Origin: an uncultured SAR86 cluster bacterium
GTDB lineage: Bacteria > Pseudomonadota > Gammaproteobacteria > Magnimaribacterales > D2472
Assembly (NCBI GenBank): GCA_902511425.1
Contig: CABXFE010000008.1
Location: forward strand, 1-38,541
Direction: 5' to 3'
DNA length: 38,541 nt
The notes beneath the pieces were generated by a model. It was not told the origin of the DNA and searched no databases. It worked only from the letters and a program-made list of their open reading frames with translations. Position 1 is the stretch's first letter. Each line of letters starts with the position of its first letter. This document shows, piece by piece, positions 5,883 through 14,379 of this stretch. The translations under genes and the position numbers were made by a program.

Positions 5883-6665
5883 CTATGCCCTTTGAGATGA
5901 TGCAGATATCACCTCACCAGTCATATATGAAGAGAGATCAGATGCCAGGAACAAAATAATGTTTGCTATTTCCCAAGGTTCAGCCCCTCTTCCAAAAGCT
6001 TCTTTGGATTCTAATTCAGCTATCAATTCATCTGAACTAGTCTTTGACAGATGTGGATTCATGGCAAGGCTTGGTGCAACTGCATTGATCCTAATTCCAT
6101 GATTTACTGTTTCCAAGGCAACGCATCTTGTTAAAGCCATTACTCCAGCCTTTGCAGCAGCATAATGAGATTGACCTGCTTGCGCTCTCCAACCCAATAC
6201 AGACGCATTATTAACAATTACTCCTTGAGATTCTTTAAGCACGGGAATAGCGGCTCTCATAATTTTCATGGCACCGTTAAGGGTAACGTTCATAACAAGA
6301 TCCCATGCTTCATTGCTCATATTTTCTAATAAAGATTCTCCGCCCAGCCCAGCATTATTAATTACACCATTTAAATTTGAGTAATAACTAAGCGCGTCTT
6401 TAAACATTGCTTCTATCTCTTTATCATTCGTAACATTGCAAAGACATCCATTGACTTCACCCTTATTCATTAAACGCAAATTATCTATTGCCTCATCTAA
6501 CCTGCCCTGATGAACATCAGAAATAAAAATATTAGCGCCTTCCTCAAGAAATCGCTTCGCGGTAGAAAAGCCAATTCCAGAGCCAGCTGCGGCGGTGATT
6601 AAGATATTTTGATCTTTAAAAAGATTTCTTCCCTCAGGATATTGAGGATTCATTAAATTATTCAT
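5883..6665 (-). CDS. ipdF: 5-OH-HIC-CoA dehydrogenase-like SDR
   Basis: This 260-residue SDR closely resembles mycobacterial IpdF (Rv3559c) as I remember it: the unusual nucleotide-binding motif TAAAGSGIG (residues 24-32), ISDVHQGRLDE, the block NNASVLGWRAQ with catalytic Ser155, Tyr168 and Lys172, and MTGEVISASSQ near the C-terminus. IpdF oxidises the 5-hydroxyl of 5-OH-HIC-CoA during C/D-ring breakdown. I chose the ATG at 6665 because it overlaps the fadA6 stop as ATGA; an in-frame TTG two codons earlier is less likely. Its place directly after fadA6 in a run of other ipd genes agrees with the call. Confidence 0.87.
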   Translation of the reverse strand: MNNLMNPQYPEGRNLFKDQNILITAAAGSGIGFSTAKRFLEEGANIFISDVHQGRLDEAIDNLRLMNKGEVNGCLCNVTNDKEIEAMFKDALSYYSNLNGVINNAGLGGESLLENMSNEAWDLVMNVTLNGAMKIMRAAIPVLKESQGVIVNNASVLGWRAQAGQSHYAAAKAGVMALTRCVALETVNHGIRINAVAPSLAMNPHLSKTSSDELIAELESKEAFGRGAEPWEIANIILFLASDLSSYMTGEVISASSQRA

Positions 6666-7816
6666 GAGCAATTCTCTAAAATCGTAACATTTGCCTGACC
6701 CCCACCCTCACACATTGTTTGAAGACCATATTTAATATTGTTTCTTTTCATATTATGAACCAAGGTAGTCATCAATCGTGCGCCGGTTGCTCCCAGTGGA
6801 TGACCAAGAGCAATTGCTCCTCCATTTATATTAATTTGATCCATCGGGTACTCCATTTCTTTCTGCCAAGCCATAGCAACAGATGCAAAGGCTTCATTTA
6901 TTTCAACCAAACCAATTTCATTTAATTGGATTCCTGACTTTTTAACTGCATATTCTGTTGCAGGCATAGGCGCGGTAAGCATCCATATTGGATCATCGGC
7001 TCTAACACTTATATGCGCTATTCTGGCTAAGGGAGAAAGGTTATGCTCTTTAAGAATTTTTTCTGAAACAATCAAAATAGCTGAAGATGCATCCGCATTC
7101 TGCGAAGAAATAGCGGCTGTAATATCATGACCATCAATCAGAGGATTTAAAGAGGCCATTTTTTCCAATGAAGTTTCTGCTCTGGGAGTCTCATCAGTAT
7201 TAAATCCTTCAACTGAAATAATTTCCTCTTTAAACAAGCCTTTCTCAATAGCGCTCATGGCTTTTTGATGACTTTGGTATGCATAGTTTTCCATCTCTAA
7301 TCTAGATATATTCCATTTTTCTGCAATCATCTGCGCAGAATTAAACTGACTTACCTCTTTATTACCATAGCGATTGACCCAGCCTTTTGATCCAGAAAAT
7401 GGATCGGCAAAACCAAGCGCCTGTCCTGCAATCATTGCATAAGATATAGGGATCAGGTTCATGTTTTGAACGCCTCCAGCGACAACTACATCAGAGGTAC
7501 CAGACATAATCGCTTGAGCAGCAAAATGAACAGCTTGTTGGGATGAGCCGCATTGACGATCAACAGTTGTTCCTGGAACATGCTCAGGAAGTCCTGCCGC
7601 CAACCAACAAGTTCTTGCTATGTCACCAGCTTGAGGTCCAACTGTATCAACGCAACCGAAAATTACATCCTCAACTAATCCTGGATCTAAATCTACTTGA
7701 TCAAAGGTTGCAGAAAGAACCACAGCTCCTAAATCAGCAGGATGCATATTTGATAAAGTGCCTTTCTTCCTGCCTATTGGTGTTCTCAGTGCGCTAACTA
7801 TGAATGCATCTTGCAT
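6662..7816 (-). CDS. fadA6: Thiolase of steroid C/D-ring breakdown
   Basis: This 384-residue thiolase has acyl-accepting Cys89 in DRQCGSSQQA, the GHP motif with His339, and Cys369 in CEGGGQAN, the complete thiolase active site. The stretch FGCVDTVGPQAGDIARTCWL (residues 53-72) and the region around Cys89 match mycobacterial FadA6 (Rv3556c) as I recall it. FadA6 is the thiolase assigned to steps after ring opening of the HIP-CoA skeleton. It overlaps ipdF by 4 bases and lies 11 bases after ipdE2. A general acetyl-CoA acetyltransferase is the alternative, but the neighbours make that less likely. Confidence 0.88.
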   Translation of the reverse strand: MQDAFIVSALRTPIGRKKGTLSNMHPADLGAVVLSATFDQVDLDPGLVEDVIFGCVDTVGPQAGDIARTCWLAAGLPEHVPGTTVDRQCGSSQQAVHFAAQAIMSGTSDVVVAGGVQNMNLIPISYAMIAGQALGFADPFSGSKGWVNRYGNKEVSQFNSAQMIAEKWNISRLEMENYAYQSHQKAMSAIEKGLFKEEIISVEGFNTDETPRAETSLEKMASLNPLIDGHDITAAISSQNADASSAILIVSEKILKEHNLSPLARIAHISVRADDPIWMLTAPMPATEYAVKKSGIQLNEIGLVEINEAFASVAMAWQKEMEYPMDQININGGAIALGHPLGATGARLMTTLVHNMKRNNIKYGLQTMCEGGGQANVTILENCS

Positions 7817-8868: not shown

Positions 8869-10020
8869 TTACCTAGGGAGCCCCAATAGTCTTTCAGCGA
8901 TAATATTTTTTTGAATTTCATTGGTTCCAGCATAAATTGGCCCTGCATAAGAAAACATGAAGCCCTTTATCCATTTAGCCGCATCATTTTTAGATTCTTG
9001 AGATAATTCTGCACTAGCTCCTAAGATTTTCAATGCTGTTTGATGCATCATATGATCAAGTTCAGACCAAAAAATCTTACCTAAACTTGATTCTGAGCCA
9101 ATGGAGCCTCCAGCAAGCATTTTTGATGCAGTATGATAAATGCTTAAGGCATATGACTCTGATTGGGACCAAGCCTCTACAACCTTAGCCTGAATCATTG
9201 GAGAGCAATGGTCTTGGTTTGCAAGATAAAGTTCTAATAGTTTTGAAGCCGTTTGTTGAAAGCGTGCCGGGCTTCTGAGCATTAGACCTCTCTCAAATCC
9301 CGCTGTAGCCATAGCAATCTTCCAGCCCTCGCCATCACCACCAAGCAAATTTTCTACAGGAACTTTTACATCATCAAAATATATTTCTGCAAAACCAGGC
9401 TCTCCATCTAATTGAGGTATGGGTCTGACAGTAATACCAGGTAAATTCAATGGGACTAATATAAAAGATAAACCTCTATGTCTTTCAGAATCTAAGTCTG
9501 TTCTAAATAGTCCAAAAGTCCAGTCAGCATATGCTGCTCTTGAAGACCAAGTTTTTTGACCATTAATTTTATAGTGATCTCCTTCAAGCACTGCTGTTGT
9601 TCTAATAGCAGCCATATCACTTCCAGCACCTGGCTCTGACCAACCTTGAGCCCAGATGTGATCTCCAGTTGCCATAGCATTTAAAAATTTTGATTTCTGC
9701 TCATGAGTACCAAATTCCATTAAGGTTGGTCCAAGCAAAAAAACTCCATTCTGATTTACTCTTGTTGGAGCTTCAGCACGATAATACTCCTCTTCAAAAA
9801 TCAACCATTGAATTAGGTCTAGACCCCTTCCTCCATACTCCTTGGGCCAGGTAACCATTGACCAATTTCCTTGATTTAGTGTTTTTTCCCACTCTCTATG
9901 CTGCTCAAAACCTTCTTTGGTATCTAATGATTTAAGTGGTGTCTTAGGAACATTACTCTCCAGCCAAGCGCGCACCTCATCTCTAAATACGTTTTGTTCA
10001 TTTGTAAAATTAATTTTCAT
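8869..10020 (-). CDS. ipdE1: Acyl-CoA dehydrogenase large subunit (FadE30/IpdE1-like)
   Basis: This is a full acyl-CoA dehydrogenase of 383 residues from the chosen start. It shows the FAD/substrate-loop motif WAQGWSEPGAGSDMAA, the beta-domain block GQKTWSSRAAYAD, and the C-terminal FSYAGPIYAGTNEIQKNI. It resembles FadE30/IpdE1 of mycobacteria in these blocks. With the next gene it should form the IpdE1-IpdE2 heterotetramer. I chose the ATG at 10020 because the family begins just after it (FTNEQNVFRDEVRAWL) and it overlaps echA20 by only 11 bases. An upstream ATG at 10056 would add 12 residues of unlikely sequence and overlap the neighbour by 47 bases. Confidence 0.87.
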   Translation of the reverse strand: MKINFTNEQNVFRDEVRAWLESNVPKTPLKSLDTKEGFEQHREWEKTLNQGNWSMVTWPKEYGGRGLDLIQWLIFEEEYYRAEAPTRVNQNGVFLLGPTLMEFGTHEQKSKFLNAMATGDHIWAQGWSEPGAGSDMAAIRTTAVLEGDHYKINGQKTWSSRAAYADWTFGLFRTDLDSERHRGLSFILVPLNLPGITVRPIPQLDGEPGFAEIYFDDVKVPVENLLGGDGEGWKIAMATAGFERGLMLRSPARFQQTASKLLELYLANQDHCSPMIQAKVVEAWSQSESYALSIYHTASKMLAGGSIGSESSLGKIFWSELDHMMHQTALKILGASAELSQESKNDAAKWIKGFMFSYAGPIYAGTNEIQKNIIAERLLGLPR

Positions 10021-10771
10021 CTTTAAAATCTGCGTCTCTTTTTTCAACGAATGCATCTCGAGCTTCTTGAGAATCCCTTGATTTATAAAGCTCTAGGGTA
10101 AAAGTTTGCTCTGACTTGTAATGCTCATCAACATTGCCATTCTCAATTTCATTCAATGCTTTTTTTGCTAAATTCATAGCTATAGGACTTTTGGAGGCTA
10201 TGTCATTTGCAATAATAAGTGCTGCTTCACGCACAGAGTCTAGATCTGGATGCAAAGACTCAATTGAGCCATATTCATATGCTCTTTGAGCAGAAATAGG
10301 TTTTCCAGTAAACATCATTTTTCTAACTGCCTGAAGTGGGAACAGTCTGCTTAAATGCGCTCCACCGCCCAGCGCACCTCTATCAATTTCAGGCAACCCA
10401 AAATAAGAATCCTCGGTTGTTAAAACAATGTCAGACGCTCCAGCAAGCAAAATTCCTCCTCCAAGAATAAATCCATGACACGCTGATATTACAGGAACAT
10501 TTGAAACATGGATTGCTCTCGCTGTTTTCCAACAACCATCATTAACATCTGTAATTTTTGTTGGATCCTCCTGCAACTCTTTGATGTCTGCGCCTGCACA
10601 AAAACCTTTACCCCTAGCTGATATCAAAATAACTCTAACATCGTTATTGTGAGCAAGATTATCAATGTTGGTTGCTAAATCTAGCCATTCAGTTGAAGTT
10701 AATGCATTAACGGGAGGGCAATCTAAAATTATTTCAGCAACATTATTACTTATTGAAGTTTCAACGCTCAT
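10010..10771 (-). CDS. echA20: Ring-opening crotonase (HIEC-CoA hydrolase, EchA20-like)
   Basis: This 253-residue crotonase-fold protein has the oxyanion-hole segments GKGFCAGADIKE and GGGILLAG, followed by YFGLPEIDRGALGGGAHLSRL. That last block matches mycobacterial EchA20 (Rv3550), which hydrolyses the five-membered ring D of HIEC-CoA to give COCHEA-CoA. The start ATG at 10771 overlaps the ipdC stop as ATGA. It sits between ipdC, which makes its substrate, and ipdE1. Of the two crotonases in the operon this is the better EchA20 candidate by motif. The functional call is from family knowledge and position. Confidence 0.82.
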   Translation of the reverse strand: MSVETSISNNVAEIILDCPPVNALTSTEWLDLATNIDNLAHNNDVRVILISARGKGFCAGADIKELQEDPTKITDVNDGCWKTARAIHVSNVPVISACHGFILGGGILLAGASDIVLTTEDSYFGLPEIDRGALGGGAHLSRLFPLQAVRKMMFTGKPISAQRAYEYGSIESLHPDLDSVREAALIIANDIASKSPIAMNLAKKALNEIENGNVDEHYKSEQTFTLELYKSRDSQEARDAFVEKRDADFKDEN

Positions 10772-11823
10772 GATTTCTCCTCAATCTTTTTAAAATTTTT
10801 AGCAGCGATACAAAATTCTTCCATAATTTGATCTATCAACTCTTTACATGAAGGAAGATTTTTTATGATTCCTGCAACTTGACCAGATGGCATGGCGCCT
10901 TCATTAGGGGAACCTTCCACCATTGCCTTTTGAATAATTGCTGGGCTATTTGCAGACATAATTGATTGTGAAATAGTTAAATCGTCTCCTTTGAGCATTG
11001 CAAAGAAGGATTTAAGCAGGTCCCCAAATGATGCTTTAGTAATTTGCTTATATTTCCAAGCAGAAGTAACCGACATTAAAAATAATGAAATGGGATTGGA
11101 TCGATCTATTTTTTTTATATATTTATTGAAAATAAGCCTATGAGACAAACCATCAAATTTTTTTGTTATTTTGATTTCATCAACTTCTGCTGAAATATAT
11201 GCTTTCTTTGTTTCGCCTGGAACAGGGCTTTCTTGAGTCATCATAAAGCGTGTTCCCATTGCTATTCCACATGCACCCCATGCAAGAGATGCAGCTAGAC
11301 CTGATCCATCTCGAAATCCACCTGCGGCGACTACTGGAATATCTACATGCTCTAGAACAGAACTAAGCAACAAAGTTGTGGGTGTTGATCCAGTATGACC
11401 ACCTCCCTCTGAGCCTTGTATAACAAGAGCATCAGCGCCTAACTGCTCTGCTTTTATTGCATGTTTAAGTGCGCCAACAGTCGGTATACAAATAATCCCC
11501 TGCTCTTTAAAGGCTTTTATGTAGTCCGGCGTTGGGGATCTTGAATAACTAACTGCTTTAATTTTTTTATCTAAGATTGCTTGAACGATCTCATCGGCTC
11601 CTGGTTGGAACATATGAAAATTTACGCCAAAGGGTTTGTTCGTCAAGCTCATTGTTTCATCTATCATTTCAATTGCTTCCTGAGGCCCTGCAGTAGCTAA
11701 AGCTAAGAATCCAAAAGCACCAGCATTTGAAGTTGCAGCAACTAGCTGAGGCATAGCCACCCAACCCATTGCTGTTTGAATAATTGGATAATCGCAACCT
11801 AAAATGTCAGTTAATTTATTAAT
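10768..11823 (-). CDS. ipdC: IpdC-like flavin oxidoreductase (nitronate monooxygenase fold), probable ATT start
   Basis: This FMN-dependent TIM-barrel protein of the 2-nitropropane dioxygenase fold resembles IpdC (Rv3553), which converts the IpdF product to HIEC-CoA. Visible motifs are VIQGSEGGGHTG for phosphate/flavin binding, VVAAGGFRDGSGLAASLAWGA, and GTRFMMTQES. The first ATG is at 11769, but the codons before it read INKLTDILGCDYPIIQTA, exactly the family's first beta strand. Between that point and the upstream in-frame TAG (11836-11838) there is no ATG, GTG, TTG or CTG. The best start is ATT at 11823-11821, 7 bases after GAAGAG, which gives 351 residues. It is coupled to echA20 by an ATGA overlap. 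Confidence 0.8.
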   Translation of the reverse strand: MNKLTDILGCDYPIIQTAMGWVAMPQLVAATSNAGAFGFLALATAGPQEAIEMIDETMSLTNKPFGVNFHMFQPGADEIVQAILDKKIKAVSYSRSPTPDYIKAFKEQGIICIPTVGALKHAIKAEQLGADALVIQGSEGGGHTGSTPTTLLLSSVLEHVDIPVVAAGGFRDGSGLAASLAWGACGIAMGTRFMMTQESPVPGETKKAYISAEVDEIKITKKFDGLSHRLIFNKYIKKIDRSNPISLFLMSVTSAWKYKQITKASFGDLLKSFFAMLKGDDLTISQSIMSANSPAIIQKAMVEGSPNEGAMPSGQVAGIIKNLPSCKELIDQIMEEFCIAAKNFKKIEEKS

Positions 11824-11835
11824 GATATTTCTCTT

Positions 11836-12747
11836 CTATTTTTTGTTCTTTTTTGCGGCAGTCTTTTTAGCTGCTGTTTTCTTTGTGGGAGTCTTTTTGG
11901 TTTTAGTCCTCTGAGATTTAGCCATCTTCTTTGCATCAAAACCTGATAAAACATTACCTGTAGTTAAATCATTATGCGCATGAGAAAAATGATGCCATGC
12001 GAAAGCAGCTTCCATTCCATTACGTTTACCTTGTAGATCTTCGACATGGTTAATAGCTTGCTTAGTTAACGTTAACCCCAGTCTTGGCATTGCAGATATT
12101 TTTTTGGCCATCTCCATAACAGTTGATTCAAGATTCTCTATAGGAACAACCTTATTAACCATGCCCATTTCATAAGCCCTTGATGAAGACATTCTCTCAC
12201 CAAGAAATAAGAATTCTTTTGCGATTCTTGGATTTAACTCATATGGATGGGCAAAATATTCAACCCCTGGAATTCCCATACGTACAACAGGATCAGCAAA
12301 GAAAGCATCTTCAGAGGCAATAATAAGATCACAGACCCACGCCAGCATACACCCGCCTGCAACACAAGCACCATGCACCATAGCAATGGTTGGTTTAGGC
12401 ATATCTCTCCAGCGTCTACACATGTTCAAGTAAACTTCTTGCTCTCTGACATACCAAAACTCTCCACCAGGCTTATTTGTATGGTCGTACCACATGGATT
12501 TTCGATCATACTCAACATCAACATCTCTTCCTGGTGTGCCAATATCATGACCTGCTGAAAAATGCTTGCCATTACCTTTTAGTACAATAACTTTAACCTC
12601 ATCATCGTCTATTGCCCTTTTAAAAGCCTTATCTAGGTCATAAGTCATCTTGCCGTTTTGTGCATTGTTATATTCAGGCCTATTCATAGAAATGATGGCA
12701 ATTTCATCTTTCTTTTTGTATGTGATTGTGGGTTTACTTCTAGGCAT
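11836..12747 (-). CDS. Enoyl-CoA hydratase/crotonase with lysine-rich C-terminal tail
   Basis: This 303-residue crotonase has the oxyanion-hole motif GKHFSAGHDIG and the second block HGACVAGGCMLAW, followed by DPVVRMGIPGVEYFAHPYEL, which is typical of a hydratase group common in steroid- and CoA-ester-degrading bacteria. It may hydrate the unsaturated side chain produced by IpdE1E2, but that is inference. The last ~22 residues are an unusual basic tail rich in KK, TKK and AKK units. I chose ATG 12747 because GGAG lies 9 bases upstream and the family starts there; an upstream ATG at 12819 lies inside ipdB. Its TAG stop is in frame with ipdC, 15 bases downstream. Confidence 0.82.
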   Translation of the reverse strand: MPRSKPTITYKKKDEIAIISMNRPEYNNAQNGKMTYDLDKAFKRAIDDDEVKVIVLKGNGKHFSAGHDIGTPGRDVDVEYDRKSMWYDHTNKPGGEFWYVREQEVYLNMCRRWRDMPKPTIAMVHGACVAGGCMLAWVCDLIIASEDAFFADPVVRMGIPGVEYFAHPYELNPRIAKEFLFLGERMSSSRAYEMGMVNKVVPIENLESTVMEMAKKISAMPRLGLTLTKQAINHVEDLQGKRNGMEAAFAWHHFSHAHNDLTTGNVLSGFDAKKMAKSQRTKTKKTPTKKTAAKKTAAKKNKK

Positions 12748-12751
12748 ATTG

Positions 12752-13507
12752 TTATTCTCCAAAAATTGAATTGCGAATACCTTGAGGATCAAGTATTTCT
12801 CGGATACAAGCAAGCTCATTATCCGTAGGCATTGGTGTGGCTTTATCTGAGTTTATAATTACATCAAAACCTGTATTTTCAATAACGTCATCAACGCTTA
12901 CACCAGGGTGTAAACTAAGGAGCTGAAGGCTATCATCTTTTCCATTGAAATCAAAAACACCCAGATTAGTGACCACAAGCTTAATCTCAAACTTTCCATT
13001 TGATAGGTCTTTGTTCTGGTAACCCATTCCGGAAACCATATCTACTGCGCCACTCACAAAGGTTTTTACAGAATGATTCGGGATGAAAATAGAATTTTTA
13101 TGATTGATAAAGTTTCCTGGAAAACCTCTTACACCGAGAAGCTGAACTTTTGGAGAATTATAATCTCCAATAGCGCTAATATTTGTTTGCCCAAATGAAT
13201 CTATTTGTGTTGGTGTGACCATGGCATGTCTTTTTCCTCCCCAAAGATTTTCAAACACACGGCTGTAACTCATGTAGCCCTCAACTAGATCATGAGAAAT
13301 ATCTCTTTTACCCATAGGTGCTGGTTGAGAGATTAAATAAGTTTCCCCGTCAGTCATCATCAGATCTGGATTATGGGTAAGCTTGGCTAGGCCTGCTGCA
13401 ATTCTTGGTATCAAACCAATGCCTGTAGCAAGGATTTCTCCCTCACCCTCCCAAGCCTTAGAAGATGCGCTGATACAAATTTCCGATAATGTAATAGATT
13501 CTGACAT
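12752..13507 (-). CDS. ipdB: COCHEA-CoA hydrolase beta subunit
   Basis: This 251-residue protein has the fold of a class I CoA-transferase beta subunit. Recognisable blocks are EGEGEILATGIGLIPRIAAGLA, TDGETYLISQPAP, GGKRHAMVTPTQIDSFGQTN and LGVRGFPGN. Length and blocks fit IpdB (Rv3552). IpdAB is a CoA-transferase homologue that hydrolyses the last steroid ring (ring C) of COCHEA-CoA instead of moving CoA. It follows ipdA by 2 bases, the usual subunit order. Its final codons contain the GGAG that serves as ribosome binding site for the next gene. Confidence 0.88.
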   Translation of the reverse strand: MSESITLSEICISASSKAWEGEGEILATGIGLIPRIAAGLAKLTHNPDLMMTDGETYLISQPAPMGKRDISHDLVEGYMSYSRVFENLWGGKRHAMVTPTQIDSFGQTNISAIGDYNSPKVQLLGVRGFPGNFINHKNSIFIPNHSVKTFVSGAVDMVSGMGYQNKDLSNGKFEIKLVVTNLGVFDFNGKDDSLQLLSLHPGVSVDDVIENTGFDVIINSDKATPMPTDNELACIREILDPQGIRNSIFGE

Positions 13508-13509
13508 TT

Positions 13510-14379
13510 TTAAAATTGCGGTAAAGGAATTTTTAGAATTGCGTCGGAGCCCCCAACAGCGTCAAGATAATCTTGATGAGTCCTGTTCAAATACTTAGTG
13601 CTGTATTCATCAAAAGATTTTGCTGCTTCTGAGTACTCTTTTAAATGTTTAATATCAAAACCATAGTTTGGAGCGCAAGATGTTGGATGAGCGCCACAAG
13701 GTGCATGCAAGATCCCCGTCACTAAACTTCTTTCGAACCGATTAAATATTGCGCCGTCTTTGCCACCTAAATCTTGTGTGGATACAACCTCTTCAGAGGA
13801 TACAAAAGTTTTGCTAGCAGCTCTTGCAAAAAGTTCATCAAAAAAAGGGTCGGGCCCAATGATTTGAGTATTACCTTTTTCATCAGATTTATTGACATGA
13901 ATTAATGCAACATCAAGTTTGAGTGCCGGCATTGCAACAAGTTTTTCAGCATCGCTGTATGGAGAGGTAACATATTCTAATTCAGAATTATGGGTTAAAA
14001 CATCTGTGCCTAAGCCAACCCGAGTTGGCAAAAAAGGCAAGTTCATTGCAGCTGCTCGCAATCCCCATTGCACCATTCCCTCATCAAGCTCCATGACTTC
14101 AATTTCATTTTTTTGACGCGCTTGACGAAAGTGAGATTCCAGCGGAATCATATCGAGTGAAACAAAACCAAAAATTAATTTTTTAACTTTTTTATGAGCG
14201 CACAATAAGCCAACATCAGGACCCCCATAACTAACGACAGTTAAATCCTTAATATCTGATTGGCATATCTCTCTGATTAAAGACATTGGTTTTCTGCGAG
14301 CACCCCAACCGCCAACTCCGATGGTCATGCCATCAGACAGTTGATCAATAACATCTTTATATGAAACTATTTTATCCAT
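13510..14379 (-). CDS. ipdA: COCHEA-CoA hydrolase alpha subunit
   Basis: This 289-residue class I CoA-transferase alpha-subunit homologue starts with DGMTIGVGGWGARRKPMSLI (residues 16-35), continues with VSYGGPDVGLLCA, and has MELDEGMVQWGLRAAA around residues 96-110. Published work on mycobacterial IpdAB places a catalytic glutamate in the alpha subunit near residue 105; Glu97 or Glu100 here could be its counterpart, which needs an alignment. LPFLPTRVGLGTD and IHVNKSDEKGNTQIIGPDPF are further family blocks. It lies directly between hsaC and ipdB with 2-base gaps, so it is expressed with both ring-opening systems. Confidence 0.88.
   Translation of the reverse strand: MDKIVSYKDVIDQLSDGMTIGVGGWGARRKPMSLIREICQSDIKDLTVVSYGGPDVGLLCAHKKVKKLIFGFVSLDMIPLESHFRQARQKNEIEVMELDEGMVQWGLRAAAMNLPFLPTRVGLGTDVLTHNSELEYVTSPYSDAEKLVAMPALKLDVALIHVNKSDEKGNTQIIGPDPFFDELFARAASKTFVSSEEVVSTQDLGGKDGAIFNRFERSLVTGILHAPCGAHPTSCAPNYGFDIKHLKEYSEAAKSFDEYSTKYLNRTHQDYLDAVGGSDAILKIPLPQF

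Follow-up and report, generated by a model that had tools for sequence, protein, structure and literature searches.

Comparative evidence for an AUU/AUC start codon of ipdC in a genus of SAR86 bacteria

The ipdC gene of an uncultured SAR86 cluster bacterium, a marine gammaproteobacterium, raises the question of where its translation begins. The window, by which we mean the whole 38,541-nucleotide stretch of DNA that was analysed, carries the gene on its minus strand (Table 1), and a mechanical list of open reading frames places the start at the ATG at 11769, giving a product of 333 amino acids. The codons that follow the TAG of the upstream crotonase gene read AAG AGA AAT ATC ATT AAT AAA TTA ACT GAC ATT TTA GGT TGC GAT TAT CCA ATT ATT CAA ACA GCA ATG. 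Between that stop (11838-11836) and the ATG at 11769 the window sequence contains no in-frame ATG, GTG, TTG or CTG, a statement of the initial annotation that was confirmed on the minus strand. The same annotation had proposed that ipdC starts instead at an ATT at 11823, 7 bases after a GAAGAG. The motif is present at that spacing (11836-11831), and 12 nt separate the crotonase stop from the ATT. Comparison of related genomes supports a translation start at a near-cognate isoleucine codon at or adjoining 11823: all 24 orthologues in the genus have ATT or ATC there. We number the ATT as codon 1, the ATC before it as codon 0 and the ATG at 11769 as codon 19.

Table 1. Features of the ipdC start region and its upstream neighbours (window coordinates).
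Feature	Coordinates	Strand	Evidence
Proposed ATT start codon of ipdC (codon 1)	11821..11823	-	Column conserved in genus; onset of protein-like evolution
ATC (codon 0), which may share or replace codon 1 as start in the window's clade	11824..11826	-	Near-cognate in 14/24 genomes
GAAGAG, weak Shine-Dalgarno-like, overlaps crotonase stop	11831..11836	-	Ends 7 nt before ATT; -2.9 kcal/mol
Crotonase TAG stop, in frame with ipdC	11836..11838	-	TAG 11/24, TAA 13/24 genomes
ipdC, 351-aa NMO/FabK-type flavoprotein if read from ATT	10768..11823	-	Pfam NMO 2.8e-73, residues 3-336; FabK structures 1.4e-51
Codon 19, the earliest in-frame ATG; read as an internal Met (QTAMGW) and not as the start	11767..11769	-	Invariant in 30/30 aligned homologues
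Upstream crotonase (EchA20-like position), lysine-rich C-terminal tail	11836..12747	-	NCBIfam PRK08290 446 bits, cut-off 280
Two CoA-transferase-family genes, ipdB/ipdA-like context	12752-13507, 13510-14379	-	Pfam CoA_trans above gathering score, both

The product of ipdC matches the Pfam NMO family at 247.6 bits (cut-off 28). Its score against the NCBIfam FabK equivalog, 232.1 bits, falls under the cut-off of 453.1, so it is not FabK itself. Further neighbours above their cut-offs are a PRK07938 enoyl-CoA hydratase and a PRK07801 thiolase, and matches to IpdE2, HsaC and HsaD, all below cut-off, were also found nearby. The locus looks like a steroid-ring degradation operon, and because of this gene context the ipdC label (predicted 5-OH HIC-CoA reductase) is well supported. 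Genes of this kind are assigned in PMC5380842 to the last two steroid rings, and the presence of steroid-degradation genes in SAR86 is reported in PMC11582366 and PMC4810484. The IpdC of the steroid degraders described in PMC5380842 is, like the protein considered here, a FabK-related flavoprotein encoded beside ipdAB-, echA20- and fadA6-like genes. The lysine-rich, A-rich tail of the crotonase (window 11839-11960) is common to this genus and to other SAR86 genera, and slowing of ribosomes at this tail could affect a restart of translation at ipdC. Elsewhere in the same operon, the listed TTG start of a short-chain dehydrogenase gene (window 5883-6671) lies inside the thiolase gene upstream of it, with an overlap of about 10 nt. 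The acyl-CoA dehydrogenase gene downstream of ipdC is intact in the window (8869-10056) and contains an in-frame stop in genome G024 (L201, G024:C12:2500-8500), which is either a real disruption or an assembly error.

We searched 26 genomes of the SAR86 genus at a threshold of 1e-100 and found ipdC in 24. The two genomes with no match at that threshold, G008 and G012, are 86% and 72% complete, so that loss of the gene from them is unproven. The codon aligned to 11823-11821 is ATT in 21 of the 24 orthologues and ATC in three, and none of them has an ATG, GTG or TTG between the upstream stop and codon 1. By its own criterion the initial annotation would have been refuted by an ATG or GTG here in related strains; none of the 24 genus members has either. 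The agreement of 24 genomes rules out a sequencing or assembly error, or a local mutation, as the cause of the ATT. ATA makes up 188 of the 689 isoleucine codons in codons 2-329, yet it occurs at codon 1 in none of the 24 genomes, which are not independent of one another. Within the genus, divergence at four-fold degenerate sites, counted over the first 240 codons, reaches 0.755, which amounts to saturation. Beyond the genus, GTG is found at shifted positions in seven orthologues of other genera in the same family (L025-L030, G032), and an ATG start is found in G060, from another family of the order. In the more distant homologues L093-L140 a standard codon always precedes the motif, in the 41 of 48 rows covered, and in this standard start these IpdC homologues from outside SAR86 are unlike those of the genus.

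The point at which coding begins was located by the synonymous share of pairwise codon differences over the 24 genomes, a measure in which the pairs are not independent. Only 46 of 633 differences (7%) are synonymous in the three codons before the ATT, against 1606 of 2167 (74%) in codons 2-18 and 6335 of 8389 (76%) in codons 19-80, which belong to the body of the gene. The synonymous share thus changes abruptly at the ATT and coding therefore begins there. The ATT codon aligns, with no gap, to a methionine of a FabK structure (7l00, chain residue 7). In an AlphaFold model of the ipdC product, built with 30 sequences and having a mean pLDDT of 87.4, Met19 comes after a helix (residues 3-8) and the first strand (14-16), and a product read from 11769 would for that reason be without the helix and the first barrel strand. 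The view that the family's N-terminal strand lies ahead of 11769 is thereby upheld in the model, and the codons concerned evolve as protein. It is very hard to believe, then, that the protein begins at 11769, even though ipdC has no earlier standard codon in the window: protein-like evolution covers the 17 codons that follow the ATT, the helix and strand would be lost, and Met19 is invariant in all 30 aligned homologues, including those whose own start lies upstream. A functional fusion of crotonase and IpdC by read-through of the stop, which had been raised as a further product of the locus, is equally hard to credit, for although the two genes share a frame in all 24 genus genomes, the stop is TAG in 11 and TAA in 13, is doubled in L009 (another in-frame stop, 3 nt ahead of the ATT) and in L024 (two tandem stops), the 46/633 share in the spacer codons is not protein-like, and the crotonase of L200, from another genus, is in a different frame from ipdC.

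Two further codons downstream of the ATT deserve attention. Codon 7 is ATG in nine of the 24 genomes and codon 8 is TTG in three others, and initiation at either would keep the first strand; these might be the real starts in those 12 genomes, with the ATT surviving as a relic. We regard this as improbable. Neither codon is present in the window and 11 other genomes, in which no standard codon occurs after the ATT before Met19, and across the 24 genomes codons 2-6 still evolve as protein does, with 431 synonymous differences among 641. Moreover, the nine genomes with ATG carry AAGGA properly spaced from codon 1, 7 nt before it, while most of the others have the weaker GAAGAG or GAG. The duplex energy of GAAGAG in the window is -2.9 kcal/mol, a stronger pairing than in 55% of the 276 G024 genes compared; values of -5.3 to -5.6 kcal/mol were obtained for nine relatives, and L010 reaches -7.9 kcal/mol, the 94th percentile. 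With the exception of L010, no exceptional Shine-Dalgarno sequence was seen across the 24 genomes, the energies being ordinary for the genome. Nor was a special RNA structure seen at the start: the region is less folded than the median G024 gene in 18 of the 24 genomes and more folded in six.

The codon immediately before the ATT is a stronger competitor. Codon 0 is ATC or ATT in 14 of the 24 genomes, the window among them, while codon -1 varies freely, and a methionine stands in the codon 0 column of several homologues from outside SAR86, among the matches listed. On the latter ground both codon 0 and codon 1 may serve in the window's clade. It is nevertheless unlikely that the ribosome there uses the ATC/ATT one codon earlier (11826-11824), whether alone or together with the ATT. 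In the remaining ten genomes codon 0 is AAT, GAA, AAA or GAT and hence unusable, so that codon 1 is the sole column able to serve in all 24, and the spacing from GAAGAG to codon 0 is only 4 nt.

Comparison supports the position of the start at codon 1, its persistence in the genus and its rarity in these genomes. Taken together, the data make it probable that ipdC in this genus starts at the AUU/AUC at 11823, perhaps shared in the window's clade with the AUC before it, that initiation there is weak and that IpdC is made in a low ratio. The initiator tRNA would presumably place formylmethionine at codon 1, yielding an enzyme of about 351 amino acids with a complete barrel. Both AUU and AUC are described in a review (PMC4611024) as codons against which IF3 discriminates, and because IF3 disfavours them we infer that initiation at ipdC would be weak; in S. 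aureus grown in poor medium, near-cognate starts are reported to yield about 10% of what AUG yields (PMC13009471). The distance from the crotonase stop to the ipdC start is 12 nt in 20 genomes, 15 nt in three and 18 nt in one, and ribosomes that finish the crotonase may restart at ipdC, supplying much of its initiation. Excess IF3 is reported to lower re-initiation in E. coli, less so in the presence of a Shine-Dalgarno sequence (PMC2268962). The outcome would be a low level of IpdC relative to its operon neighbours, possibly one that is sensitive to IF3 or to the state of the ribosomes.

Whether the near-cognate codon has a purpose is a separate matter. Because ATG and GTG are absent from codon 1 in all 24 genomes, selection for a weak start is suggested, and the retention of ATT or ATC in every genus member with the gene suggests that evolution holds IpdC production low. 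Regulation through the ipdC start codon is plausible. More specifically, a start that is discriminated against by IF3 might act as a throttle, making IpdC dependent on restart from the crotonase and on the balance of IF3 and ribosomes, and selection might have kept it past the point of synonymous saturation; we offer this only tentatively. There may equally be no regulatory meaning, an explanation that we find possible without favouring it. Restart from the crotonase might make the identity of the codon unimportant, in which case ATT or ATC could have persisted without a function. The close spacing of stop and start fits such an account, as do the ordinary ribosome-binding site, the start regions, whose folding is weaker than that of the median gene in 18 of the 24 genomes, and the relaxed start usage of G024, where 53 of 277 genes begin with GTG or TTG (ATG 224, TTG 37, GTG 16). 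Against it, a single base change would turn ATT into ATG, yet even with synonymous sites at saturation neither ATG nor GTG has appeared at codon 1. Reconstructions reported in PMC5622118 point the same way: 202 of 5,080 ancestral GUG starts became AUG, whereas only one of 61,358 AUG starts became AUU.

A survey of other genes was carried out by comparing 340 kb of G024 with 400 kb of G009 and 397 kb of G021. Three of the 277 conserved genes tested were flagged, and ipdC is the only real case among them. The flag on an acyl-CoA dehydrogenase gene is explained by its in-frame stop in G024, and a gene whose protein starts with MCGIVGIY was judged from its sequence to begin at its own ATG. The survey thus lends no support to a genome-wide habit of non-standard starts, ipdC being the sole real flag among the 277 genes. 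The survey could have detected a non-standard start in 170 of these genes; the other 107 would have escaped it, since it misses genes in which the next standard codon lies a few codons on, infC included. In the window itself, 31 open reading frames were matched in G009 or G021, and only ipdC has a long conserved stretch before its first standard codon together with synonymous changes in both; the conserved stretches before window 5883-6671 and 8869-10056 overlap a neighbouring gene. The infC gene was matched in 22 of the 26 genus genomes, the match in G000 being a fragment. In the 11 infC loci inspected the start, judged by homology, looks like ATC in nine and ATT in two, and a TTG two codons later, in ten of the 11, is a possible start. 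Across SAR86 families (L031-L060) the starts of infC seem to vary between ATC/ATT, ATA and ATG, and for this reason the usual near-cognate start of infC may have been lost in some lineages.

To our knowledge, few bacterial genes are known to have an AUU or AUC start. One of them, infC (AUU, AUC or AUA), resembles ipdC in that a near-cognate isoleucine start is kept across relatives, apparently in this same genus, but the product of infC, IF3, itself disfavours the start of its own gene, whereas ipdC is a catabolic gene with no known feedback. The initial annotation had taken infC to be the known AUU case; this was too narrow, for E. coli pcnB and staphylococcal cvfC1 have AUU starts as well. 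The AUU of pcnB limits its expression, as cited in PMC1780047 and PMC13009471; pcnB encodes a poly(A) polymerase, whereas ipdC belongs to a catabolic operon and follows its upstream neighbour by 12 nt. The near-cognate starts of staphylococcal cvfC1 (AUU) and ccpN (AUA) are reported to be conserved among relatives, as is that of ipdC, but they have a strong extended Shine-Dalgarno sequence and evidence from ribosomes (PMC13009471), whereas pairing at ipdC is ordinary or weak and its start is predicted from sequence comparison. The GTC start of Streptomyces sigR is likewise non-canonical, within an operon and conserved in a genus; it belongs to a regulator for which repression by IF3 and unequal ratios of operon proteins are described (PMC5472188), whereas at ipdC control by IF3 would be an extrapolation. 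Our literature search, which had partial coverage, found no report of an ATT or ATC start for ipdC.

On the comparative evidence, ipdC has a real, genus-wide AUU/AUC start and is an addition to a small known group, in an unusual place: a catabolic enzyme. A gene finder limited to ATG, GTG and TTG would start ipdC 18 codons late. A start of this type that is kept throughout a whole genus, in a catabolic enzyme instead of a translation factor, makes a good case that selection can maintain near-cognate starts, beyond mere tolerance of them. To find further examples, any well-sampled genus can be screened in the same comparative way, by looking for a non-NUG codon at which evolution turns abruptly protein-like. 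If the proposed throttle is true, the last steps of steroid-ring breakdown would be tied to growth state without a dedicated regulator, in a wild and abundant ocean bacterium.
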